In this document: piece after piece, positions 866 through 62,500 of the stretch
Position numbering within the stretch: the first letter of the stretch is position 1
Layout: each line of letters starts with the position of its first letter
Assembly (NCBI GenBank): GCA_021234155.1
Contig: JAJEKV010000016.1
Coordinates: 19,169,616 to 19,233,615, forward strand
Length of the DNA stretch: 64,000 nucleotides
DNA from: Isoetes taiwanensis
Taxonomy: Eukaryota; Streptophyta; Lycopodiopsida; Isoetales; Isoetaceae
Direction of reading: 5' to 3'
The notes under the pieces: model-generated
Told to the model about the DNA's origin: nothing
Database searches by the model: none
Seen by the model: only the letters and a program-made list of their open reading frames with translations
Translations under genes and position numbers: made by a program

Positions 866-1663
866 TCATCGATAATGTTCTTGAAAGTCGATTGTGTCGC
901 CCAATCCGACTTCCTTTGGTGCCCACAAATTGTGTTGTTGCTGCACTTGCAGCTGCATTTTAGCTTCCTCTTCCTCGTCGGAGGGAATGTCAATAATATC
1001 TTCAACGTCATCTAGCATTCCATCTTGTTGCCGTTGTTGTTATATGACATTCTCCTCATATTCAAGCAAGAGTTGCTCATCTTCTCTGGAATCTAAAGGG
1101 TTGAGTTCTATGGCTTGAATGGAGGGTTGACCCACTACGTTCTCGGCCTTATATGCTAGAAAGAGAGCCAATGCAGTAGTAAGGGTAAAATATCTGACAC
1201 CCCTATGGCTCATGGACATATAGCTAGGCATACGAGATGCCTTGTTCTGCAAAGCCTTCATGACATTTTCAACTATGTTTAAGGCTTCACCAAGAATGTC
1301 CTTTGGTATCCAAAGGCCTTCACATGGTGGGACTTGTTTAGCATGGACCTCTACCCTAGCATGAAACTCTGCCATAATATGGTGTGGCATGGAGTGTATC
1401 TTGGAGGCCAAATGAGTGCTGGAACACTTGACATACCTAATCAAGTGGTACTTCCTTGAGATGACTAGTGGGGCTGTACCAGGAAGTGAAAGTAGAGGTC
1501 GCCATAGAGGTGATGAAGAAGACTGTGTCAAATACGAAGGTGAGCACCTAAGTAGCTGAGAAGATTGCCTAACTGACAGGAGCGAGATTTGAAGGTGCTG
1601 TCTTGCAGAAATGAAGTGGTATTTATAGGAAAGAACCGTGCATAAATTTTTGGGTTGCAACAA
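866..1663 (-). pseudogene. Unrecognised ORF with one in-frame stop and an acidic C-terminus
   Basis: An open frame of 207 codons on the minus strand ends in a TAA at about 1040. The same frame then stays open for roughly 55 further codons with a Gln/Asp/Glu-rich composition (QQRQQDG, then an IPSDEEEE stretch) up to a TGA at 866. The compositional continuity suggests one longer ancestral protein with a single nonsense change. I see no catalytic motif, signal peptide or family I recognise. It lies downstream of the H3-like ORF of element A on the same strand, so it could be part of that element or a separate gene remnant. Confidence 0.3.
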
Positions 1664-2300: not shown

Positions 2301-2460
2301 CGAAAATTTGAACTATACTTTTCCGACTCTTTAACATTGAAATTGTTTACAAACATTAGAAAAACCATAATTTTATTATTAGAAGTAACTTTCGACATAC
2401 ATAGTAACTACTAAAAGTTTCATTCTCGACGGCTTTTAATAGATAGATAGATAGATAGAA

Positions 2461-3372
2461 ATTTTAACGTCCCTAGACATAACGGTTACTCTGCGAACGT
2501 GCATTGTGCATATATTAGCATCATCGAGTTTTGGCTGCTTCCTAGGTCGCTATCATCATTTGTGAAGTGCCACGAAATTCTGGCTGATATTCCTGCACCA
2601 TTTCCTTTACTAATCTGCCAAAGGTAGCGTGGGGGATCAGAAAATTGGTGCTCCGCTGGAAATGGCGGATCTCTTGCAGAGACTTTGTGTAGGTTGAGAT
2701 CAGTTTCTATTTTATTGGTTTCTTAGGTGCCACTGGAGGATCTGGTGGAGGTCGGAGGGGATTTAGATCTCTTGTTGGCCTGCCAATTGCAACAAATCTT
2801 ACTCGGTGTGCGTCATAATACTCTGAGTAGGCTTTGTACATCGCCATGAGCTTCTCATACTACTTTAACTTTTCTTTGTACCTCTGTTCTGGCCCTAGAG
2901 TGTAGGATTCGATCCTCTTGTTGGGCTTCTTATTAGTGTCTGCTACTGGAAGTTTTGGATATGGCGGCGGCTCAGGTGCCTGCTCTTCATCGGTGTTCAC
3001 CTGTTCTTCATCTGGTTGATCTTGGTGCTACTGTTCCTGAACCGATTGAACTTCGGAGTTAGGGTTTGTTTCGGAAGTGCCCTCCGCTAAAAGTATACGC
3101 TCGAGTTCTCGAGTATAGTCATCTATATCTTCAGAAGAAGTAGACGGGGGTACTTCTTACCGTACTTTCTTTCGAAAGCCTTGTTCCTATGCTTCTTGGT
3201 TTGATGGGTGGGGGTGTTGGATCATAAGGTTGAGGTATTGGAGCTGATCAGGAGGCTAGTCTTCTGCATGTTTAGACCTCCTTTCTCGTCTCCTCTGATA
3301 GCGTTCACAAACTTGGGCGCTGGTGTTAGAGTCGCTCTCAGCCATCCTTGCGGTCTGCTTAGTGTGAGTCAT
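2461..3372 (-). pseudogene. Histone H3-like first ORF of LTR element A (decayed)
   Basis: One minus-strand frame runs about 280 codons without an indel. It begins MTHTKQTARMAES, which matches the H3 tail at T3-K4-Q5-T6-A7-R8. An acidic, Pro/Glu-rich spacer of ~200 residues follows. From residue ~228 comes an H3-type histone fold: SLQEIRHFQRST (alpha-N), FGRLVKEMVQEY (alpha-1 region), FRGTSQMMIAT then EAA (alpha-2). After a frameshift near 2526 come DDANICTMHVRRVTVMSRDV (loop 2 and alpha-3; H3 has [20 protein letters not shown]). Seven in-frame stops occur, at codons ~39, 62, 72, 115, 171, 222 and 277; six are TAG. The TAG at 277 sits where H3 has Gln, as expected from CAG-to-TAG decay. RHFQ and NFLIP recall CENH3, whereas FGRLV recalls canonical H3. 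The ORF starts 627 bp downstream of the PBS. Confidence 0.85.
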
Positions 3373-3559
3373 GACGAACAGCTTCTCGATCCGACCACGG
3401 GCACCTGAAAATCACCTTGTTGATGAAAACCAATTCTTTTCTGCGAACTGAGAGTTGTGGGCCCCAATATTTATAGAAAAAACCCTAAATTCTAGGTCAA
3501 ATTGTTTTTTTGCATATAACTATATCATACGACTTAGGAAAAGGGTGATACCGTCGATA

Positions 3560-3629
3560 CGACTCTCATTGTGCACGAAATGGGCTTGTGAGAGTCTCAC
3601 AAGTGCCATTCGCGCTAGCTGAGAGTCGT
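3560..3629. repeat. 70-bp palindromic hairpin repeat, copy 3
   Basis: GACTCTCA pairs with TGAGAGTC at the ends, and CTTGTGAGA with TCTCACAAG at the centre. The middle stem is GCACGAAATGG/CCATTCGCGC with one mismatch. It lies in the leader between the PBS and the H3-like ORF of element A. A partial 3' half (GCGAACTGAGAGTTGTGGG) at about 3437-3457 may be the remnant of a fifth copy. Confidence 0.9.
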
Positions 3630-3758
3630 GGGTCTAAATTACTCTATAAGTTATCAATTATTATGTTTAAGTACACAATCAAGCCTAATTAATTATTTTA
3701 AGCTATCTTGGACTATACACTTAATATTTCTAGATGCATATAACCTAAAATAGGTGGA

Positions 3759-3828
3759 CGACTCTCACCGTGCAAGAAACGAGCTTGTAAGAATCTCACA
3801 AGTGCCATTCGCACTAGTTGAGAGTCGT
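3759..3828. repeat. 70-bp palindromic hairpin repeat, copy 4
   Basis: Same architecture as copies 1-3, with CGACTCTCA/TGAGAGTCG outer stem and CTTGTAAGA/TCTCACAAG inner stem (one mismatch). It starts 199 bp after copy 3, almost the same spacing as copies 1 and 2. The hairpin therefore seems to be embedded in a ~200-bp repeated unit. Confidence 0.9.
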
Positions 3829-3985
3829 TGGGCACTGGCTCACTGATTTTTCTAATGGTTGGAAATTTGTTTTGCCAAAAACGTGATTCTTGCTTGGATT
3901 TGTTTTGCCAAGACGAGGATTTCTCTAGAAAATTAGTACTATCAAGTAATTGGCCAGTGTTCAATCTTGGTCAACTAAGATCATT

Positions 3986-3997
3986 GTTCTGATACCA
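3986..3997 (-). promoter_or_regulatory. Primer binding site (initiator Met tRNA type) of element A
   Basis: On the minus strand the sequence reads TGGTATCAGAAC, one mismatch from the TGGTATCAGAGC typical of plant LTR elements primed by initiator Met tRNA. It begins one base inside the LTR end (CGTCACA). This fixes element A as minus-strand and the LTR at 3999-5561 as its 5' LTR. Confidence 0.85.
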
Positions 3998-3998
3998 T

Positions 3999-5561
3999 TG
4001 TGACGTCCCCCAATCATATACGATGCTCCCATCATACACGAACTGGAGATTCCCCCTCTTGGCCATGCTACCATCGAGAGACCGCCCATCTGACGTGGGA
4101 TTCCTGATGGTGGGCAGGAATCCTACGTGGGAGGACTAGGCATGTCATTTACCAAGTCTCCATCGGGATCCACCTAGCAATGCAGAACCGTATACCATGA
4201 GTACATAACAACAAATAATACATATAGCCATCCCAAAGGGTGGAGATCACCATAACAACATAACAACATAGACAACAATGGCACATCCTACCCAAGGCTC
4301 AAACTCAAGGTATGACTGATGACTTGGGGTCTCCAGAGGTCAAAGCAGATGGAATTCATGGAAAATGGACTGGAATAGAACATGGTCGTTGGGTAGTCCA
4401 ATCTATCCACCCCTCCTATGCATACTTTGCAGATAGGCTGATAAGTTTTGGGACCGGATCGTAGCCTGTCGGGGGCATAGCCAAAGGGGCTATTTCTGGG
4501 TTGCATCTCCCCAGTCCTGATGAGGCAGGAGGAGATCACTCTTTCCTCTAGAGGATACATGCTAATGGCAGGCAGACTAGAGAGGCATTGCTCGTCTATG
4601 ACTTCAACCCCATTGAAGGTGGCCTCACCACCCAAAAGGTGTCAAGCCCATACCAGAGCCGCAAGCAGTGCATAAGGTATTAGACCTAGTCCGTAATGTT
4701 TCCCGATAGGCTTTACGCACCAGAGGGATCAGGTACCATCAAACAAGTTCCCCCTTGTTAGCCGGTCTGGCCCCTCCGCCCACAACGCAGGCATGCTCTT
4801 ATGCACATGCCGCTTTAATTGGGAGTTAATGAGACTAATCTAGGATCAAATCTACTAAGGCTTGGGTTGCTACCCCCTTCCCAATATACAGGAGTGCGAA
4901 CAGGTCATACATCATAGAACCATATGAATCGAATAACAGAACATCACATGAATCTAACCTAAACATACATATTTAGGGTTCATTAGTCAGTTCTTGGCAA
5001 GAACATACATAGTTAGGGCTGGACAAGAATGGCCAATGACTGATCTAAGAATCAAACAAGGGTAGGTGGCACCTACCGGATCCTTGGCTGGCGGGCATTG
5101 CTCCTCTGAAGGTGTCCATGGCCAGCGACCGAGGTGGCTGCTGGCGAGTCCGAGGTTGCTTGTAGAAGGCGACCTACTTTGATCCGACTTGTGAAGACTA
5201 CGCGCAGCTCCCAAGGCTGATGGCGACTGCTGTCTCAGACACGAATCCGAAGATGTGAACGATGATCACGAGGCCCCAAAAATGGGGCGCATTAAGGATG
5301 TGTCCCTTTTATAGAAGGTTACTTTTTAGGGTACAACTTTAGGGTTGACAATGAAAGGTCAGGTCATGGGGTTCCGCCATGTGGCAATTAGCTTAATATA
5401 CTCCCATGTTGCAACATGGGCAATATATTGGAGTCTAGGGGTTGCGCCCCCATGGGAAATCTATACCAGCTAACGTGTACATGTCGTACATACGGCATGT
5501 ACTAGTGATGTGGCGAGTATAATATACACATTTATACCATATATTATCCTTGAACTTCACA
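3999..5561 (-). repeat. 5' LTR of element A (1,563 bp)
   Basis: Read on the minus strand the LTR begins TGTGAAGTTCAAGGATAATA and ends GGGGGACGTCACA, just before the PBS. It is homologous along its length to the LTR at 60919-62500. Shared parts include the first ~90 bp, a block around AGTATGCAYAGGAGGGGYGG, and GAGCCTTGGGTAGGAT. It contains the TATA box at 5306-5313. Right of the LTR the sequence runs directly into copia reverse-transcriptase coding sequence, so element A inserted into a copia element. No partner LTR of element A is present in the window. Confidence 0.85.
5306..5313 (-). promoter_or_regulatory. TATA box of LTR A
   Basis: TATAAAAG on the minus strand, about 250 bp into the LTR. 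Two telo-box-like motifs (AACCCTAAA and ACCCTAAAA) lie in the ~40 bp just upstream of it. LTR B has CCCTAAC-type motifs in the corresponding core-promoter region. Confidence 0.6.
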
Positions 5562-25567: not shown

Positions 25568-26865
25568 TTATTTTTTCAAGGACCTGTTCATGGCTTCTGT
25601 TTCATGGTAATATATTGGTGGAGGATCGTCTTCAATTGGCAGCATGTTCCAGCCCTTGTCTTCCATTATACAAAAGTTCCAAAGAACACAACATGCATGT
25701 ATGATCTTGGAGGCTTTGGCAACATGTACGGGCAAGTGTTCCAGAATTCTGAATTTTTCCTTGACAATGCCAAATCCATTTTCTACACACACTCTGCCCC
25801 TACAAATCCTTTTGTTAAACTTACCATAAGCACCCTGATTTTGAGAAAAGACTTTAAGGAGAAAGGGCCTGCTAGAATATGCTGAATCACCTAGTAGTAG
25901 TGGTGGAATAGTTACCTGAACCTCTTGGTCAGTAGGATGCCCCTTCTTCAGTTTTCTGCCACTCAAAGTCACCATTGGTTCTTGCAAAATTTGTTTGGAA
26001 GCAATTTTATTATAGATGGAGCTCTTCTTAAACTGGTTGGAATCATGGACTGAACCTATTCTTGTTACACAAACATTTATAAACAATCTGCTATGTGTCA
26101 CAATTCCTTGCATGAGACATGAGTGCCTCTTATGTCTGCTATAATAGTCATCCCCATTATCCTTTTTTTTGGGTTTCCTCCATAAAAAGATGTGGGAACC
26201 GTCAACTGCACCATATATATTGGGAAACCCAGTTGCATCATGGAATTCCTTAATACACTGAGTTAATCTTGCTCCTGTAGGCATAGCAACAAACCGTTTG
26301 TACAACATTGTCTTCGAGGCCAATACAAGCGTGACTTTCTTGGTATATTTTTGCACTGTTGCTTTCCCAACATAAAATCTATGTCCCACATGTAAGGGCA
26401 TATCCTCGTGTGCTTAAAAATACAGAACCATAGCAACTGCTTTCCTTGGATCAACAGGGGGCCTTACTTTAATCCCGGGCCTGACGAGATAAGGCACAAT
26501 TAAACCTACCAATCTCTCAAATGTGGCCCTTTTCATCCTGTAAAATTGGTGCCACATATCGTCTTCAAAGGATGGTAGACAATTCCAAGCATGGTTATCG
26601 ATATTATCCCACTGTGTTCTCTGCCTTGGAGCAATCCAGAATCTTCTTGGTGGTCTTCTCGCCCTACTGGAACCCGCTATCATTAAAGCTGCAGATGCGC
26701 AAAAAAACAAACCATTGTTATCTTCTAAAACTTCATCATCGAACAGGGTCATTGGGTCTTCGAGCTCATTGAGCGCAAGTAGCTGCAAACAGTATCTCTG
26801 GAATGCAAATCCGAGTGTCAAAACCGAAAAAGCATGGCAATCATGCCAAGAATGACCGGATCCAT
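25568..26865 (-). pseudogene. H2 Harbinger transposase, one frameshift near the middle
   Basis: Start set at the Met-Asp-Pro codon (26865) conserved with H3. Blocks in order: PRRFWIAPRQRTQWDN, DDMWHQFYRMKRATFERLVG, HVGHRFYVGKATVQKYTKK, GFPNIYGAVDGSHIFLWRK (first catalytic Asp), GDDYYSRHKRHSC, GSVHDSNQFKKS, LLLGDSAY (second Asp), KRICRGRVCVENGFGIVKEK (Glu). This is the DDE_Tnp_4 nuclease type of PIF/Harbinger. Small frameshifts near the start and at ~26405 separate otherwise open frames, so the copy is fairly young. Confidence 0.9.
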
Positions 26866-27285: not shown

Positions 27286-31362
<4,077 letters not shown>

Positions 31363-34348: not shown

Positions 34349-36003
34349 TCACAGCAGAACATGACCATCTAAGTTTTCAAATAAGACATGCCTCATCTGG
34401 TCTCCCTGTTTCTTAAGACTCCTGTTCATAGCTTCAGTCTCGTAGTAGTAAACTGGATCAGGCTCTTCTTCGAGAGGCAGCATGTCCCATCCCATGTCTT
34501 CCATAATACAAAAGTTCCAAAGCACACAAGCAACATGTATAATTTTGGAGGCCTTGCCAACATGCACGGGTAGATGTTTTAGAATTCTGAATTTCTCCTT
34601 CACAATCCCGAACCCATTTTCCACACAAACTCTACCCCTGCAAATCCGTTTATTAAATTTGCCATAAGGACCATGATTCTGTGGAAAAACTTTCAAGAGG
34701 AAGGGTCTGGCAGCATAGGCAGAATCACCAAGCAAAAGTGGAGGAATGTTAACCTAGATTTGGGGGTAAAAGCATGTTAGGGTGTCCCTTAAAAAGTATT
34801 ATTTAGTGACAAAAAAAGTACCTAAAAAGGTACCCATGACTGGGTACTGGGTACGTATGTAATATCTCAATAAAAGGTACACTCTAGAACTTTTATACAT
34901 ATTTTGGTCTCCAGTAGCATTATCTTTATCTTAACTTTGAATATTAATGCGTCCTTGACTTTTATTTTGGACTTTTGTACTAGTTTTAATGAAAATAAAA
35001 ATGAGAAAGTACCCAGTTCTGAAGTACCTAGTGTATGTACTTTTGCAGGTTCCAAAAGTGGTACACCCTAACATGCTTTTACCCTTGGTCTTCAGTGGGT
35101 TGACCTTTCTTCAATTTTCTGCCACTCAACGTTACAACTGGTTCGTTCAAGATTAGTTTGGATGCAATTTTGCTGTAAATGGAACTCTTCTTGAACTTTG
35201 TACACACATACATTTATAAAAAGCCTGTTGTGTGTGACAATACCCTGCAGCAGACATGAGTGCCTTTTGTGTCGACTGTAATAGTCATCACCTTTGTCAC
35301 TCTTCTTGGGTTTCCTCCATAAAAAAATATGAGACCCATCAACAGCACCATACACATTTGGCAATCCTGTTGCATCATGAAATTCTTTTATACATTGAGT
35401 CAATCTTGCTCCAGAAGGCATGGCTACAAAACTTTTGTAAAGCATTGTCTTGGAGGCCAACACTAGTGTAATTTTTTTAGTATATTTCTGCACTGTAGCT
35501 TTTCCAACATAGAATCTCTGACCCACATGCAAAGGCATATCACCGTGTGACAGAAAGTAAAGAACCATGGCTACAGCTTTCCTGGGATCAACTGGGGCCC
35601 TAACCTTAAACCCTGGCCTAATCAAATAAGGGACAACGAGCCCGACTAATCTCTCAAAGCTGGCCCTCTTCATTCTATAAAATTGATGCCACATATCATC
35701 TTCAAAAGAAGCTATACAATTCCATGTGTGATTATCTATATTATCCCATTGGGTCCTTTGCCTTGGAGCAATCCAAAATCTTCTAGGTGGCCTTCTAACC
35801 CGGCATGTTCCGGCTAACATCAAAGATGAGGCAGCACAGAAGAACAGACTGTCGTTTTCTGGCAAGGCATCGTCATCGAATAGATTCATTGGGTCTTCAA
35901 GCTCGTTTAGTTCCAGAAGCTGCAAACAGAACCTTTGGAATACGATTCCGATTGTAAGAGCACGCAATAGCATGGCAATCATTCCGAGAATCAATGGATC
36001 CAT
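34349..36003 (-). pseudogene. H3 Harbinger transposase, interrupted by a MITE
   Basis: Start at the Met-Asp-Pro codon (36003). Blocks: PRRFWIAPRQRTQWDN, DDMWHQFYRMKRASFERLVG, HVGQRFYVGKATVQKYTKK, GLPNVYGAVDGSHIFLWRK (first Asp), KGDDYYSRHKRHSC. A ~24-bp deletion with frameshift near 35200 removes the GSVHDSNQ block. The 321-bp MITE at 34764-35084 then splits the gene just before LLLGDSAY-type sequence (34735: LGDSAYAARPFLLKVFP) and KRICRGRVCVENGFGIVK. Apart from these two events the frame is open, so the element is not old. Confidence 0.9.
34764..35084. mobile_element. MITE in the H3 transposase, 321 bp
   Basis: The TIRs are GGGTAAAAGCATGTTAGGGT (left) and its reverse complement at the right end (ending ...GCTTTTACCC). 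TTGG at 34760-34763 and 35085-35088 is a candidate 4-bp target duplication. The transposase reading (PTED.. on one side, VNIPPLLLGDSAY on the other) can be joined across it, which confirms an insertion. No coding capacity. Confidence 0.85.
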
Positions 36004-36476: not shown

Positions 36477-39400
36477 AATATCTTCATAAAACAATAGATG
36501 AGTTTCCATGTCCTCATCTAGCTCATCACTCTCACTCCAATTAGCTGAATCATCCTCGTCAATATTTTGTCGTGATTCTAAACATATATCTCTATGTCGC
36601 AAAAGTTCAATCAAATAACTCCCCAGCATGTCACTATCACCTGAGAAGAGAGTCGGGAGATCTATATGGTCTATCCCATATTTAACCCTTAATGCATCAT
36701 ATGCCACACATCGAAGTAATGTATGGTCCTCGTCCTCAACCTGATTTGTGTTACAGACTTTACAATACCTTTGATCTCTCGGTATGATATGCCCCCATCT
36801 GCCTGTTTCCACCCCCAAGTGATGTGAGCTAAGACGGCTCCTGCTAATAGTGTGTCTTTTCTGCATTGAAATATTTGCTTGCAAATGTTTTGCTGCCTCC
36901 AAGTCCGGATTTATATTTTATTTATGTAGTATCATCTTAGTCTTAGGCTGCATCCATAGCTTCCTGTGTATCCGGCTAGAAAGCCATTGCCTTAAATTCA
37001 AATTGACTGATAATATTTCATCCAGTTCAATGCATCTGGCCAGCCATTTTGCAGTATCATACCAAATCCCCTTTCCGTTACTAGATTTCAAGGCCCTGTG
37101 TGCAAGCCGTGATTCATCCTGGGCTAATACTTTCTGGAAATATGTAACACATCTCAAAATTGCTTCTCCTTCAAGTGGCATGAGGCCACTTTCTACTAAC
37201 ATCATCGGGTATGGTGTTTGGGTCTTGACCCCTAGCTCTAGTCTTAAAAACTTTTTCAAAACTTGCTCTATATCGTCCCATAGACATTGAGGCAAGCTTG
37301 GCCCCCAGACTTCGCATCCATACAAGAGCACGCTCTGCACCAGGGATTGATACAATTTCACCTTAAGAGTCCAAGACCATAAATGTATTCTTCGACACAT
37401 GCTCTGCAATGCATATAGTGCTCTTTGCCCTCCGACCACTTTCGTTGTGTAATGCATGCATTCCACACAATAATTCTAACGAAAGTAAGACCCAAGTATT
37501 TGTTGGAATCGCACATAGTTACAGAATTTCCCTTATAGCTGAAAATTGGCTCTTGTCTAAGGGCCCCAACGACCATGATGTTTGTTTTGTCTAAATTTAC
37601 ACGCATACCGGTCGATCCGCGAGAAAAGCCCAATCCGTTTAAGTGTTCTGCATATGCTCTTTTGTCCGTGCAAAGATGACCACATCGTCCGCGTACATGA
37701 GTAACTGAAGAATATATCCGTGCAATTCCATTCCTCCTGGGCAATTAGTGTTAAGCCAGGCTTCAAGGCTATCAATAAACAGGCCAAACAATGTGGGCGA
37801 CAGCGGGCATCCCTGTTTCACCCCAATATTGCTCTCTACTTGTGCTGAAATTTCAGATGAGAAGGGTTGTGACGACTCTACGGTACTTTTTCATAATGCA
37901 TTTGCACAGCTCCCCTGAGTTCCAGTGGTACATTAAGTGTTTCCATTCTCTCCCATAGTTTCATCCGAGGAACCTTATCAAAAGCTTTTTTAAAATCAAC
38001 AAAAGCTATGTATACTGGTCTTTTTGTTCCCTTAACCTGGTCAAAAATTGTTTTCAGTACCAACAAATGGTCTAATGTGGATCTGCCATGTCTAAATCCT
38101 GCCTGTGTTTCAGCCCTCTTTTGGTTAACTTCTGCCCAAGTGCTCAATGTCTTTTCCAAAATGCATGCAAAGAGCTTTGAGAATAAGTTACTTACAAGAA
38201 TTGTCCTGTAGTTGTTTGCTTCATGACGAGATCCTCCTTTATGGATCGGGACTATCCTGTTTCTGCTCCAATCAGGTGGTAGACCGTGTTCCAACGCTCG
38301 GTTAAACATGAGTGTCAATGTAGGGATGATACTTGGCCCTGCCCATTTGATGTGTTCTGCGCTAAGACCATTCAGGTCAGCTGCTTTGCCATTTGACAAA
38401 GAGATAATCCCATCTGTGACCTCTTCTTCTTTGAATAACAAGGTCAATCTGGTGCCTTCTATGTGAGCTATGTCATCGTTATGGTATAAAGCTACCACAT
38501 GCTGCCATAATTCTTGCGCTTCCAATGGGATATCAGCCTTGGTATGTTTCTTTAGTTCCTTCCAAAACAGAAATAGGCTCCTCCAAGTATCTTGAGCATA
38601 GGGCTTGCTGCTTGTTCTTGAGGTATTGTCTCTTCTTAGACCTCGTAACTTGTTTGTATTTCTGTTTATAATATGTCTTAACAGATTGATCACAAGTTTT
38701 CCACTGCTTTTTGGCATCTCGGCATGCTTGGTCGAACCATGCCTTGCATGGTAAACCCTTACGTGCTCTATGTGATGCAAAGATTTCATGGGACGCAGCC
38801 CCTAAGATATGCACTAGTTGCTGATTCATGGTGGATATATCCTCTCCCCATTGTGTATGAGTTAGCTTGTCTGCAACACAATCTCTGTATTGAACACGCA
38901 AGTAAGGTTTCAGAAGGTATCTCCCTTTCTTATGCTGTATTTTTGGAGCAGGCTGCTGCGTAACATTGAGCTGAAAATGCAATGGAGTATGATCGGACTC
39001 TAATTCTTCATCTCCTATTATGAAATCAGCAAGATCATGGGTTGTTTCTTCCGACATGGCTAAATAGTCAACCGTGTTACGAGATCTACAAGTGTTTTTC
39101 ATGGTATGTGGAAATCTGTCAAGTCCGTTGCAGATTATGAGCCCTGCGCTGCTACATAAAGAAAGGAATTTCCTGCCACTTCTGGTTATAATTGGATCTC
39201 TGGATTGTCTTCTTTTTCCCAACATTTGCATTCCTCGTTCATCTACTTCCTCTAACCAGATCGGATCTTTATCCAGTGTGTATGTGGTGGCCTGTAAATT
39301 ACCAATCCGTCCGTTAAAATCCCCTACTAAGATGATCTTGCCCTGCTCCTGGAAGTGTATCAGATCTTGTTCTAATGTGAAAAACAAGTCCTCATTTGAG

Positions 39401-39780
39401 GCATCAGTCTCCGAATATGTTTTTGTATGCCTGGATGCAAAGTAACATACAGCCATATAATAAGGAATATGTAATCCCTTGATTTCTATCCAAATGTACT
39501 GACAGTTCTTGTCTTTTTTTATACCAGTTACCATCTCCTTGTACTCTGGTCGTACAAAGCATGCTATCCCTCCATTTCCCATGTCTTTATCATTGAATCT
39601 TGCATTATGTACTGAGTATATCATCTCAAACCCCTCAATATCTGGAAGTGCATATAAGTCGTGCTCTTTTGTTTCTACAAAGCATATGACATCTACTTTC
39701 TCTAGTATATCATACATGCTGATCACCTTGTCAATAGTCGGTCTATTGATGTTCCAGGTATCTATCTGAAGGCCTCCTGC
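36477..39780 (-). pseudogene. LINE3 ORF2 (endonuclease, RT, zinc finger), several frameshifts
   Basis: Endonuclease frame 39726-38533: DVICFVETKEHD, GNGGIACFVRPEY, QYIWIEIKG, ILVGDFNGRIG, NTVDYLAMSE, ESDHTPLHF. RT frames 38789-37878 and 37821-37639: LSNGKAADLNG, NRIVPIHKGGS, QAGFRHGRSTLDHLLVL, YIAFVDFKKAFDKVPR, MKQGCPLSPTLFGLFID, LLMYADDVVIFAR. C-terminal frames 37466-36477: LVQSVLLYGCEVWGP, LSSHHLGVETGRWG, and YCKVCNTNQVEDEDHTLLRC. Frameshifts occur near 38560, 37880, 37640, 37450 and 36910. All domains are present but the gene is dead. Confidence 0.9.
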
Positions 39781-58433: not shown

Positions 58434-59018
58434 ATGGCGCAAACCAAACAGACTGCCCAGAAATATCGACCAGGTGAAACGCCTAGCGCCCAAGATACGA
58501 GGCGCATACAGCAGCTACTTAGGGAGCGACTTCTCGCAGGGGGAGACCAATCTTCATCAAGCGAGCAGAGCACTTCAGGGGAGCTGCAGGAGGAGGGATC
58601 CGAGCACAGATCACTAGATGAGCTGGTTGACGGCATCAACCAGCAGGGGAACGAAGGAGCAGACATTGGATCGGAAGACGACAAAATTCAAAGAGTATTC
58701 GAGCAAATGGAAAAGGAGAAACAGGAACGGGAGCAGGCGGCCAAGGCACGGGAGGAGCAGAGGGAGCCAACTCCCGAGCCAACCGAAGAAGAACAGCTCG
58801 AGGCCTGGATTCGAATGCATGAGGCGAAGTCACGGCGTCGCGAGAAGAAAAAGGCCGAGAAGAAGAGGAAAAGAGAAGAAAATGAGGCCGAAGAAAAGAA
58901 GAAACTCAAGGGCAAAAACGTGGAGGAGCCCAAGAGGAAGAGGAAGACGACACCAAGGACCAAGATCGTCATCGAGGAACGGGCTGCCCAGAATAGCAAG
59001 AGGAAAGGATGCCCTGAT
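58434..59018 (+). CDS. Element B first ORF: histone H3-tail-like N-terminus, charged protein
   Basis: MAQTKQTAQKYRPGETPSAQ aligns with the H3 tail without gaps: A1, T3, K4, Q5, T6, A7, K9, G13, P16 and Q19 are identical. R2 and R8 are both Gln here (codons CAA and CAG), as expected from CGx-to-CAx decay. After it come an acidic Ser/Glu region, a heptad-like KIQRVFEQMEKEKQEREQ stretch, EPTPEPTEEEQLEAWIR, and a long Lys/Arg/Glu-rich tail (residues ~140-190). The frame is open for 195 codons and then runs into the integrase in another frame at a deletion junction near 59005-59018. The H3 fold found in element A is absent here, probably lost in that deletion. Confidence 0.75.
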
Positions 59019-60050
59019 GGTTGTGGTCGACAAGCTGTCGAAGATGGCACACTTTGTGCCTTGCAGGACCACCGATACAGCCTTGGATACAGTGGCTCTC
59101 TTCACCAAGGAAATCTTCAGGCTCCATGGCATACCGAGAGAGATCATCTCCGACAGAGACTCGAAGTTCCTGAGTGCCTTTTGGCAGGATCTTTTTGCAA
59201 CGATCCAGATGAAGCTGTCCATGAGCACGGCCTATCATCCTCAGATGGATGGGCAAACAGAACGGACCAACATAATTTTGGAAGATATGCTAAGAAACTA
59301 TGTCTGGAACAAGCAGAGTAAGTGGGAAGATTATATTCACTTGGTTGAGTTCGCTTATAATAGCACCAAGCAGGAATCATCCCAGATGTCGCCGTTCATG
59401 ATCAACTACGGCTACCAATGTCTAACTCCAGATACTTGGCACAATCCTGTGTCAAAGGTAGAGGTTTCGCAGCAAATGTTGGCCGACATGCAGCAGCTGG
59501 TAGAAGAAGTCCGAGGGTATCTTCTTGCAGCAAGGAGTCGACAAAAGAGCGTCGCCGACAAGCACCAGACGGTCAGAGAATTCGAGGTTGACGACAATGT
59601 TTGGCTCAAGATCAAAGTGAAGCAGGCAAAGCTCTGCATCAATTGTAAGAAGCTTGCTCCAAGATGGGCTTGCCCCTTCAGGATAGCCAAGAGAGTAGGT
59701 AACCAATCCTACAAGTTAGAGCTGCCAGCACATCTAAAAATTCATAAAGTCTTCCACGTGAGTTTGTTGAAGAAGCATACTCCAAATCCAGAAGAAATCT
59801 TGGACACACCAACATTGTTGAAAATGACAGAAGAGCAGCTAGAGATAGTCCCAGACTTGATCCTTGATAAGGCGCTCAAGAAGACAAGGAGATAAGAGTT
59901 TCTCCAATATTTGGTCAAGTGGAAACACTTGCCGGTGGAAGACGTGACATGGGTGCTTAAGAAGGACCTGATAGTACCCGCAGTTCATGGAGCAATGGGA
60001 CGACAAGGTCATCTCCGAAGTAATCGGCTCAGGCATGTCGATCTTTGTTT
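59005..60050 (+). pseudogene. Element B integrase (partial) with C-terminal chromodomain
   Basis: The integrase core starts at DALMVVVDKLSKMAHFVPC; the zinc finger and the first catalytic Asp are lost. IISDRDSKFLSAFW carries the second Asp and HPQMDGQTERTN the Glu. The GPF-type module follows (APRWACPFRIAKRVGNQSYK, HKVFHVSLLKKH). After a TAA at 59893 the frame continues EFLQYLVKWKHLPVEDVTWV, a chromodomain (LVKWKGxPxxxxTWE type) that by family binds methylated H3 tails and guides insertion. The frame is otherwise open from 59005 to 59895. Confidence 0.9.
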
Positions 60051-60918
60051 AGATTAATGTCATGTGTAGTTAAGATTAATCTACGCATGCAACCTATGCT
60101 AGATAGGGGTTGCATGTGTATGTACCGATGATGGGACCACTACGGTGATCTCTAGGACGTGGTGTAATGTCATTGTAGACATGACCGCGGTTTTGCTTGA
60201 ATTAGTTGTAAGGTAGATTAAAAAGTCCACTTCTGTCTCATGGAAGTAGATAACCTCGAGAGATAAGAGGTCATTCAGGCATGCATTAATAGGAAAGCAC
60301 CTCTAGTCAATGCCTACGGGAAGGACGCCACCCTTCACGCCAAGGGCAACTAAGGGTGTAGGCATGAGTGTCATCCTAGGCATTATAGGGCGCTGTCTCC
60401 ACGGCCACGATGGAAGAAGCATCCTCTTCCTACGCCGGGAGATTAGTCATGCATCCATTTAGTTAATTAGATAGGTGGTTACCTTATAACCATAATTCTA
60501 TTAATAATTAAAATGGTACTAACGTAGTGTCAACCTGCAGGCGAATAGAGCGCTCCAGAGGGCAAGGAGGTCGAGCTACGAAGACTTGCAACACAAGTTT
60601 TGTTGGAATGTGTTGCAAGGAATGAAGAGTACCTCGAAGAATAATTGTATATGAAATTGTTGAGTTTTGATAAACTTAAATGTTGTATTAAGTGAGGCTA
60701 ATAAGTACCTTACTTTAATGGAGTTATATATTGATAAGTTATTTGGATAATGTAATGTCGTAGTAATATTTTAAAAATATTACCTCAGATTAATTCTAAT
60801 AAATTGTGTAAGTATAATAATAATAAATTGTATGCATCAAGTTGGTTGCAGGACAAGAAGATCCCAAGGTGGGGAGACCCACGATGCTGCGGACATCATC
60901 ATTTCAAGGTGGGGAGAA
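60051..60918 (+). other. Element B non-coding region before the 3' LTR
   Basis: No ORF of note. It ends in a purine-rich stretch (TTCAAGGTGGGGAGAA at 60903-60918) that serves as polypurine tract. A similar AAGGTGGGGAGACCC copy at ~60866-60880 suggests a duplicated polypurine tract. Confidence 0.6.
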
Positions 60919-62500
60919 TGTGACGTTCCAGCACAATATACGGTCCCAGGACGTATACTGTACTGTCTCGTCACGCGTACACGCCATCCGATTGACATGT
61001 ACGCCGACGTGTAGCTAAACAAGTAGCACCCTAGGGGGGGCAACTTGCAAGTGTGTGCACATTTATTCATATGTACATTTATTCATGTGTACACATTTAT
61101 CCATGTGTACACTTTAGCCCACTTAATTAATATAGGCAAGTGGGCCACACCCATTTGTCCCACATGCTCAAGGGTTAATGGAAGCCCTAGCCCTAACTTA
61201 TAGTCTATATAAGGCAACCCTAACCCTAACTTTCCATTTTCGTCCACAGCCTTCCAGAACTCCGTTTTGCTTGCTCCAAGAACCAATCTCACCTCCCGAA
61301 GTCTGTCTGAGCAGCCTAGCCCATCAGCTTCCCTTTCTAGTTTCATCTTCAAGTAGTTCAGCAGCATGGAAGCATTCAGAGCAGGAGGAGCAAGCCAGGG
61401 ATCAGGTATTTTGCCAATTCAATAGGCTAAACCGCCTCCCAGACATAGAGTAAGTAGGTTTAGCCTATTGATCTGCCCATAGCAACCATCTAGACCTCTA
61501 GATATCAAGCCATAACTAAAGAACCTAACTCTGTGATTTAGATTAAAACTTATTCTTTAGTTCTTCTATGATGTGTATGTGATGATGATCTCTGTGGAAT
61601 CATTGTATTGGGAAGGGGGGTAGAGACCTTAAAAGCCTAGTAGTCTGATGCTCCTAGCTAACCCTCTTTAATGCACTATTAAATTCGGCATGTGTACAAG
61701 ATCCACACCTGGTTGTGGATGGAGGGACTAGACTGGCTTACAAGGAGGTTCATGTCCTGACTCATGATCACGTCCCTCTGGTAGTAAAGCCTATCGGGAA
61801 CTACAGTGTACTAGACCTAATGCTCTGCCACTGCGTGCGGGCTTTGCATGGGTTCGACACTCTTGGGGTGGTGTACACCTTCCATGGAGTTCAGTCGAGT
61901 ACGGGCAGTGGCCCTCTAGTCACCTTGAGTCAGCATGCTAGCCTCTGCTGGGAGCAATCCCGACCTGCCTCATCGGAACTGGGGAGATGCAACCCAGGAG
62001 TAGCCCCTCTGGCTATGCATCCGGCAGGCTACAGTCAAGTCCCAACACTTTTCAACCTACTCTGCAAAGTATGCACAGGAGGGGCGGATGGAGTGGACTA
62101 CCCTAAGCCATGTTCTTATGCCAGCCAAATCCATTGCCATGAATTCTGTCTGCAATGACTTCTGGAGGTCCAAGCCGTCAGTCCTCTCCCGTGAGTCTGA
62201 GCCTTGGGTAGGATCTCCATATGTGATGTACTGATCTCTGTCTATGCAGGTATGTGGTGAACCATCCTTCGTGATGGTCATGTGATGTTGATGTATATGC
62301 TACTGACATGTATGTTACGCCTCCGCAGCTAGGTAGGCCCTGAGGGAGACGGGGTAAAATGACCCCTTCATTCTTCCCACTGGAACTCTTCAAGGTTGCA
62401 GTGATACGTGGAGGGCCCTGTATTAGCATGGCGCTGGTATGGGGGATGAACTCCTGTTTGTATATGGTGGGTGCACCGTATATGAGTAGGGGACGTCACA
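60919..62500 (+). repeat. 3' LTR of element B (1,582 bp)
   Basis: Begins TGTGACGTTCCAGCACAATA and ends GGGGACGTCACA, giving an inverted TGTGACGT/ACGTCACA terminal pair. It aligns with LTR A (3999-5561) along its length. The TATA box is at 61206-61214. The 62158-61715 and similar open frames inside it are not genes. Confidence 0.9.
61206..61214 (+). promoter_or_regulatory. TATA box of LTR B with adjacent telo-box-like repeats
   Basis: TATATAAGG, followed at once by AACCCTAACCCTAAC and preceded by GCCCTAGCCCTAAC. In plants, telo-box motifs near the start site often mark promoters active in dividing cells; here this is inference. Confidence 0.55.

Follow-up and report, generated by a model that had tools for sequence, protein, structure and literature searches.

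A histone H3-like first open reading frame conserved in a family of LTR retrotransposons of the quillwort Isoetes taiwanensis

Introduction

Core histones are familiar as products of host genes, and some DNA viruses encode them too. The available text of a review of viral histones describes single viral H3s from the Manila clam xenomavirus, the Dishui Lake phycodnavirus, a sylvanvirus and three metagenomic sources; they are host-like, with folds 73-87% identical to that of the possible host, three of the six have extended tails, and at least three carry I89 at the chaperone site (PMC9145170). In the same text, a bracovirus histone H4 (CvBV-H4), encoded by a parasitoid-wasp polydnavirus, is a captured core histone with an extended tail and a fold ~87% identical to its counterpart, which is incorporated into host nucleosomes and changes gene expression (PMC9145170). 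By term count, "retrotransposon" is absent from this review.

The closest described retrotransposons are the plant chromoviruses with group II chromodomains (Tekay, Galadriel and Reina), which have Ty3/gypsy gene order, LTRs, a tRNA-Met type primer binding site (PBS) and a chromodomain at the integrase C terminus that keeps W45 and has lost Y24 and Y48 (PMC3350952, PMC6317226). Extra ORFs are common in plant elements, and those of the Ogre/Tat/Athila type are heterogeneous, the most prominent being a plant mobile domain, Transposase_28 and Athila ORF1 (PMC6317226). The main text of that work uses the word "histone" once, about chromodomains, and a review of host factors of plant LTR retrotransposons, in its available text, names histones only as host chromatin (PMC12786077). 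Among the papers listed in our searches of the openly licensed PMC literature, outside which most subscription papers lie, we found no retrotransposon-encoded histone.

Here we describe a family of LTR retrotransposons whose first ORF (ORF1) ends in a histone H3 fold and, in one branch, begins with an H3 tail.

Results

A decayed H3-bearing element and a second family member

The window, meaning the whole 64,000-nt stretch analysed here, comes from the genome of Isoetes taiwanensis, a quillwort (lycophyte), where it occupies positions 19169616-19233615 of its contig. On its minus strand lies a decayed LTR retrotransposon whose ORF1 has an H3 tail and a broken H3 fold. The 5′ LTR (3999-5561, minus strand) is 1,563 bp long, with boundaries read from the sequence as TGTGAAG...GTCACA (TG..CA), and adjoins the PBS TGGTATCAGAAC (3980-3997, minus strand), which we take to be of the initiator tRNA-Met (tRNA-iMet) type; the predicted LTR of about 1.56 kb with its neighbouring PBS is thus in place. 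The word TGGTATCAGA is present in 8 of the 17 element loci scanned, and in one copy of subfamily A (L010; subfamilies are described below) it lies beside the LTR.

The original prediction had read a minus-strand frame as opening with the H3 tail motif and continuing into an H3 fold past a frameshift, and both readings held up. The frame runs downward from 3372 as MTHTKQTARMAESD... and opens in register with the tail MTHTKQTAR (3346-3372, minus strand), where relatives keep MARTKQTARK. The window holds 2,022 Met-started stop-free 9-mers in its six frames. Two of them share 7 of 9 positions with MARTKQTAR, and the next best, 13 in number, share 4, with no 9-mer at 5 or 6; the best two come from two different elements of the H3 family. 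A charged, acidic spacer with six in-frame stops follows (2689-3345, minus strand), and then the first fold piece (LQEIRHFQRST ... MMIAT; 2533-2688, minus strand), which passed the Pfam Histone cut-off of 26.4 bits with a score of 27.9 (E 3.1e-6). The second piece, DDANICTMHVRRVTVMSRDVK, lies past the frameshift (2457-2528, minus strand) and scored 22.7 bits (E 1.2e-4), below the same cut-off. By tblastn, which supports both pieces, host H3 is 44% identical to the window fold across residues 46-97, and the end of the spacer together with the fold matches ORF1 of subfamily D (3147-2533, E 9e-30, 39%). The nine loop-2/alpha-3 residues listed as kept (D106, N108, C110, H113, R116, V117, T118, M120 and D123) are all present. 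An ORF2 remnant lies 3′ of the H3 ORF (893-1508, minus strand; tblastn with D ORF2, E 5.6e-36), and no matching 3′ LTR was found within the window. Because of the six in-frame stops before MMIAT and the frameshift after it, this copy is dead.

Two pairs of 68-nt imperfect palindromes surround the H3 ORF, one on its 3′ side (2031-2300, consisting of 2031-2100 and 2231-2300, 200 bp apart) and a second pair of the same palindromes on its 5′ side (3559-3828, consisting of 3559-3629 and 3758-3828, 199 bp apart). Folded as single-stranded DNA, the four gave z values of -1.3, -7.2, -5.7 and -3.2 against shuffles, and one exact palindrome pattern had no match in 25 loci checked. A small foldback element could account for them, or they may belong to the retrotransposon itself. 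Nearby, 1696-1725 and 1919-1948 form MITE-like 30-nt inverted arms, 97% complementary and 193 nt apart.

A second, internally deleted family member lies on the plus strand. Its open frame (58434-59321) runs from MAQTKQTAQK, an H3 tail in which Q replaces R2 and R8, through a charged spacer and an NLS-like PKRKRK; it is without a fold, gave no match in a Pfam search and is overlapped in another frame by the integrase part of pol (58978-59970, plus strand; 83% identical to the pol of the D locus L063). The ORF at 58618-59895 matched Pfam rve and SH3_Tf2-1. The 3′ LTR (60918-62498, plus strand), preceded by the polypurine tract GGTGGGGAGAA, is 71.5% identical to the first LTR over 935 aligned positions. 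By eye, we also read a chromodomain-like remnant in this element (58434-62498), whose deletion runs into the integrase.

Elsewhere on the minus strand, the window holds a DDE_Tnp_4 transposase ORF (25568-26401, 87.6 bits), an 826-aa reverse transcriptase ORF with RVT_1 (28304-30784) and an Exo_endo_phos endonuclease ORF (38533-39717), the latter two probably from non-LTR elements, and an ORF at 35092-36003 with a weak partial match only (17.9 bits, below cut-off).

Subfamilies A and B carry an H3 fold without the tail

A search of the genome (1,658,258,908 bases in 1,110 contigs) with Pfam Histone gave 150 scored matches; the 8,704 loose candidates behind them are not a copy count, and our copy number for the family is a lower bound. 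Fifteen of the 150 span the profile from position 2; eight of these were extracted, and all are normal host H3 genes of 136 aa. The remaining 135 matches start at profile positions 4 to 25, many of them in frames of 400-490 aa. From these 135 we fetched 15 loci, picked for long frames and chosen by their histone match, so that a fold is present by construction. In all 15 the fold forms the C terminus of ORF1, and the loci fall into subfamilies A (8 loci) and B (7 loci). ORF1 is ~450 aa long where unbroken (it is split in L010), with an N-terminal domain of ~300 aa in place of the tail, basic stretches just before the fold, and a fold 84-89% identical to host H3. The aligned A and B copies have a basic linker and no ARTKQTARK tail with its K4 and K9. 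Profile searches with the N-terminal domain gave nothing credible against PDB, nor against Pfam, where it was searched within whole ORF1s.

Between compared representatives of A and B the folds are 85% identical and the N-terminal domains 31%, with synonymous sites saturated (pS 0.86). Synonymous differences to the eight host H3 genes are saturated as well (pS 0.93), and we therefore reject a recent re-capture from host H3 for A and B. A fold tree, built on few columns (84), separates A, B, host plus PDB H3s, and C plus D; A and B folds have V89I, T107A and I124L in common.

In a search of 9 kb per locus for frames of at least 150 aa, ORF2 was found in 13 of the 15 A/B loci (not L012 or L020) and gag or pol in 10 (not L012, L015, L016, L019 or L021). 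One locus, L021 (C101:620000-629000), reads LTR, ORF1(H3), ORF2, polypurine tract, LTR and then leader-like sequence again; no gag-pol frame was found between its LTRs, and it is possibly a tandem, non-autonomous or deleted form.

Subfamilies C and D combine the tail with the fold

Using the window ORF as a DNA query, we found 10 places in the genome, namely the window copy and a few relatives, mostly decayed, which we call subfamily C; some of these start MARTKQTARI or MTRTKQTARI. One of the 10 places, L035, belongs to a larger subfamily, D, and has an unbroken ORF of 394 aa. This ORF opens MARTKHTARKPKKDD...; past the tail come a long helix-like stretch rich in Lys, Arg and Glu, the NLS-like PKKRK, an acidic region and the H3 fold.

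With D ORF1 as the query we obtained 108 matches in 105 scored candidates, of which 67 start at residue 1 and 30 run from residue 1 to at least 388 without a stop. We took 27 full-span loci, 25 of them analysable (in L060 and L062 no frame passed the motif filter). MARTKQTARK is exact in 21 of these 25 ORF1s (~394 aa), and the four others have H for Q5 (one), R for T3 (one) or P for R8 (two). Fifteen different nucleotide spellings encode the tail among the 25 copies, and it is the best-kept part of the D ORF1 protein. The residue after K9 is P in 19 copies and V in 6, in place of S10, and an NLS-like PKKR[KR] is present in 19 of 25. About 290 residues of charged spacer set the tail apart from the fold.

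Tested for ARTKQTARK, the subfamilies divide, with D exact in 21 of 25 copies, C nearly so, and the aligned A and B copies without it. The proposed architecture of tail, spacer and fold thus stands for the C/D branch; A and B have the fold without an ARTKQTAR tail. A chance match is ruled out by the occurrence of tail and fold at the same place in many copies.

The H3 ORF1 belongs to a chromovirus-type element

One A copy has a pair of 1.65-kb LTRs that are 95.7% identical (K 0.043), spans ~12.3 kb, is flanked on both sides by the 5-bp target duplication TTTGT, and has a PBS and a polypurine tract (TGGTATCAGAGC, AAGGAGGGGAGAA). The genome search for intact copies thus yielded relatives with open frames and this one A copy with both LTRs. 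The gag and pol of the A/B loci are of Ty3/gypsy type, with gag, PR, RT, RH and INT seen; the B element L020 matched Pfam Retrotrans_gag and Ty3_capsid, and a zinc knuckle of gag matched below cut-off.

We read the context of the D copy from L037 together with L063 and L064. The pol of L063 is a single 1,207-aa frame with Pfam RVP_2, RVT_1, RT_RNaseH, Integrase_H2C2 and rve, in the order PR-RT-RNaseH-INT, and D pol is 64% (PR-RT) and 82% (RH-INT) identical to that of L020. The D copy LTRs are 89% identical over the part covered (K 0.12), and LTR ends in D copies are related to the window LTR (68-73% identity). At the integrase C terminus is a chromodomain (PF00385, 34.8 bits, cut-off 25.1); in a broken A copy in L025 the same profile gave 20.2 bits, below that cut-off. 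The D chromodomain reads EIVLEFLLDR...QYLVKWTHLPVEDATW, in which, as we read it, W45 remains and the first and third positions of the aromatic cage, Y24 and Y48, are lost. This combination defines group II chromodomains (PMC3350952), and by these domain features the D element is read as a chromovirus with a group-II-like chromodomain. That the integrase chromodomain reads the element's own methylated tail through a classical aromatic cage is unsupported, since two of the three cage positions, the first and third, are lost.

ORF2 is common to A, B, D and the window copy (for example, L010:3055-4581:- in A). Profile searches of A, B and D ORF2 against Pfam and PDB gave no credible relative, and D ORF2 is a distant match to B ORF2 (24% identity, E 5e-9). 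The similarity of D and B pol, together with this distant ORF2 relation, leads us to conclude that the order ORF1 - ORF2 - gag-pol is common to the three; the window copy is tied to D by LTR, ORF1 and ORF2. The layout of the family is LTR - PBS - ORF1 - ORF2, followed by gag-pol where seen.

Copies picked by ORF2 also carry the fold

We used ORF2 as an anchor so that copies would be picked without regard to the histone. A ORF2 as the query gave 90 matches in 85 scored candidates, of which 67 rows were taken as reaching the N-terminal part of ORF2 (query start at or before 39). By coordinates only, 17 of the 67 have a scored histone match 141-233 bp upstream. We checked the first 10 of the remaining 50 by sequence, over 650 bp upstream, and found the fold in nine, of which five are unbroken, one has a stop and three have frameshifts. 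Among the 27 copies tested in all, 26 therefore have a fold or a histone match directly upstream. The other, C1084, has an open ORF2 and no fold within 650 bp; 6.8 kb upstream, in the same orientation, lies a histone match, an arrangement compatible with an insertion between histone and ORF2. The original prediction held that intact members lacking the fold would speak against it; none was clearly found, with C1084 the one copy that has no fold within 650 bp. A solitary retrocopy in the leader of a single element is excluded by the H3 ORF1 at the same place in many copies.

Tail and fold are the most constrained parts of ORF1

We calculated w, the Nei-Gojobori dN/dS averaged over pairs that are not independent of each other. 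The fold gave 0.017 in A (seven copies; L010 left out) and 0.046 in B (seven copies), set beside 0.014 for eight host H3 genes, and the ORF1 N-terminal domain gave 0.133 in both A and B. Across 25 D copies, w was 0.021 for the tail, 0.080 for the charged helix, 0.271 for the spacer, 0.104 for the pre-fold region and 0.052 for the fold. The A, B and D values are lowered because those copies were picked by histone or ORF1 score; only the six ORF2-anchored A folds escape this bias, and these, our least biased set, gave 0.039 (the three frameshifted ones left out). The robust part of the data is the contrast between regions of the same proteins. The comparison of dN/dS among copies that had been proposed thus gave 0.02 for the tail, 0.02-0.05 for folds and 0.08-0.27 for the rest of ORF1.

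The sequences show that the family conserves its H3 part, across several deep subfamilies and under strong purifying selection. A fold found across the family and purifying selection upon it together argue for a maintained element-encoded histone and not a retrocopy accident. Selection of this kind indicates that tail and fold matter to the element, not what they do.

Histone contacts are kept in A and B and partly lost in D

As proposed, histone profiles recognize the translations; in addition to the window pieces, Pfam Histone matched the folds of A (143.6 bits), B (148.8) and D (78.7), and the PDB profile matches were H3s by name among the best 60 of 176 (A) and the best 60 of 174 (D). CENH3 has a longer loop 1 than H3, and CENH3 identity is ruled out because the A, B and D folds align gaplessly with host H3 and have a loop 1 of H3 length. 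C110, H113, R116, D123, L126, R49 and R83, which we take to be H3-H3′ and DNA contacts, do not vary in any of the 40 A, B and D folds. We compared 22 positions that presumably make or adjoin H3-H3′ or DNA contacts; the only departures from the host in A and B there are K64R in B and one K53N in A. The changes from host in A and B are mostly at 60, 62, 86, 87, 89, 102, 105, 107, 121 and 124.

Residues 87-90 are the chaperone recognition site, where viral single H3s read TAIL or SAIL and so also have I89 (PMC9145170). Here the site is HAIL in A, FAIL in B and DMLL in D, with TAVL or SAVL in the host. For A and B, this site and the kept contacts fit assembly by host chaperones. The D fold is identical to host H3 at 42-45 of 84 residues (24 copies) and has lost R63 (P in 25 of 25), F84 (V in 25 of 25) and R129 (Y or S in 24 of 24). 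Given these losses and DMLL at 87-90, D may lie outside canonical nucleosomes, with a fold that may serve H4 binding instead.

Discussion

The original prediction that an LTR element captured an H3 gene is borne out at the level of the family, in that the fold, and in C and D the tail too, lies at the same place in many copies. We think it probable, at about 0.6, that a chromovirus-type Ty3/gypsy family captured a host H3 long ago and kept it as ORF1, and that the protein acts as an H3. Unlike Tekay, Galadriel and Reina, this family places two additional ORFs ahead of gag, of which the first encodes a histone H3; set beside them, its length is ~12.3 kb (from one A copy), and its assignment to the chromoviruses is by domain features. 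As in Ogre/Tat/Athila elements, the extra ORF lies outside gag-pol, here upstream of gag. A chromovirus with an extra ORF is a known kind of element, and a selected H3 with a tail as its content is new to us. The viral single H3s belong to DNA viruses, whereas this is a high-copy LTR retrotransposon family, so its H3 is not a viral histone; unlike them, it has a ~300-aa foreign N-terminal domain (A/B) or a tail and fold split by ~290 residues (D). CvBV-H4 differs in being an H4 and a polydnavirus gene, and for it nucleosome incorporation has been described.

The kept histone surfaces suggest that the element interferes with or joins host chromatin. Anatomy, distribution and selection can be read from the copies, and from them we infer all binding and effect, including the earlier idea of a decoy or of entry into nucleosomes. 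Most likely, the A/B protein would pair with host H4, be handled by host H3 chaperones and enter nucleosomes, formed either on host DNA or on newly made copies of the element. Such nucleosomes would lack a methylatable K9/K27 tail and display the element's own domain, and this would either weaken silencing or mark the targets of insertion. The D/C protein, nuclear through its NLS-like motif, could act as substrate or bait for writers and readers of the H3 tail by offering them K4 and K9; in D, because P or V replaces S10, a bound reader would not be releasable by S10 phosphorylation. Since A and B are without such a tail, tail mimicry cannot be the common function. The contacts kept in A and B, with the tail as the best-kept part of D, lead us to favour a family whose protein works as an H3, with a tail-mimic function added or retained in C and D.

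The strength of selection also bears on other accounts. A soluble protein that stays outside nucleosomes could blunt silencing of the element by titrating H3 chaperones (A/B) or the writers and readers of H3K4/K9 (C/D). The D tail is under the strongest constraint in its protein, most D copies have the NLS-like motif, the spacer is acidic, and the chaperone-site region is altered in A and B, with V89I in both, all of which would suit a decoy; the low w of the whole A/B fold, including what we take to be DNA and H3-H3′ contacts, seems beyond the needs of chaperone binding, and we rate this account as rather unlikely. It is more doubtful still that ORF1 encodes a histone-like nucleoprotein condensing the element's RNA or cDNA in the particle or at nuclear import. 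Viral histones package giant-virus genomes, and marseillevirus histones are virion proteins with a suggested packaging role in the available text (PMC9145170); ORF1 lies 5′ of ORF2 and gag and has basic stretches before the fold. Against such a role, gag seems to have its own zinc knuckle, a histone encoded without H4 would have to rely on the host, and generic condensation would make the kept H3-specific alpha-3/loop-2 surface and the register-exact tail superfluous. Least credible is a functionless passenger, an H3 gene that is carried along and decays, which may be the state of many extra ORFs in plant elements. Broken copies, the window copy among them, are indeed numerous, but the dN/dS values contradict decay, with purifying selection on fold and tail where synonymous change is high or saturated, and H3-derived ORF1s are present in A, B, C and D.

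Going further than the favoured reading of a protein that works as an H3, we suggest tentatively, as somewhat against the odds, that this retrotransposon lineage makes its own histone to build chromatin of the element's choosing, the C/D tail on its charged rod being bait for silencing enzymes. Because A/B nucleosomes would carry a transposon domain instead of an H3 tail, the host could not place K9 or K27 marks on them. If so, host and element would compete directly over the histone code. A retrotransposon-kept H3, with an exact tail under selection in one branch, would directly connect transposons, at the molecular level, with the chromatin system that silences them, and makes it possible to test whether a transposon can write chromatin of its own.
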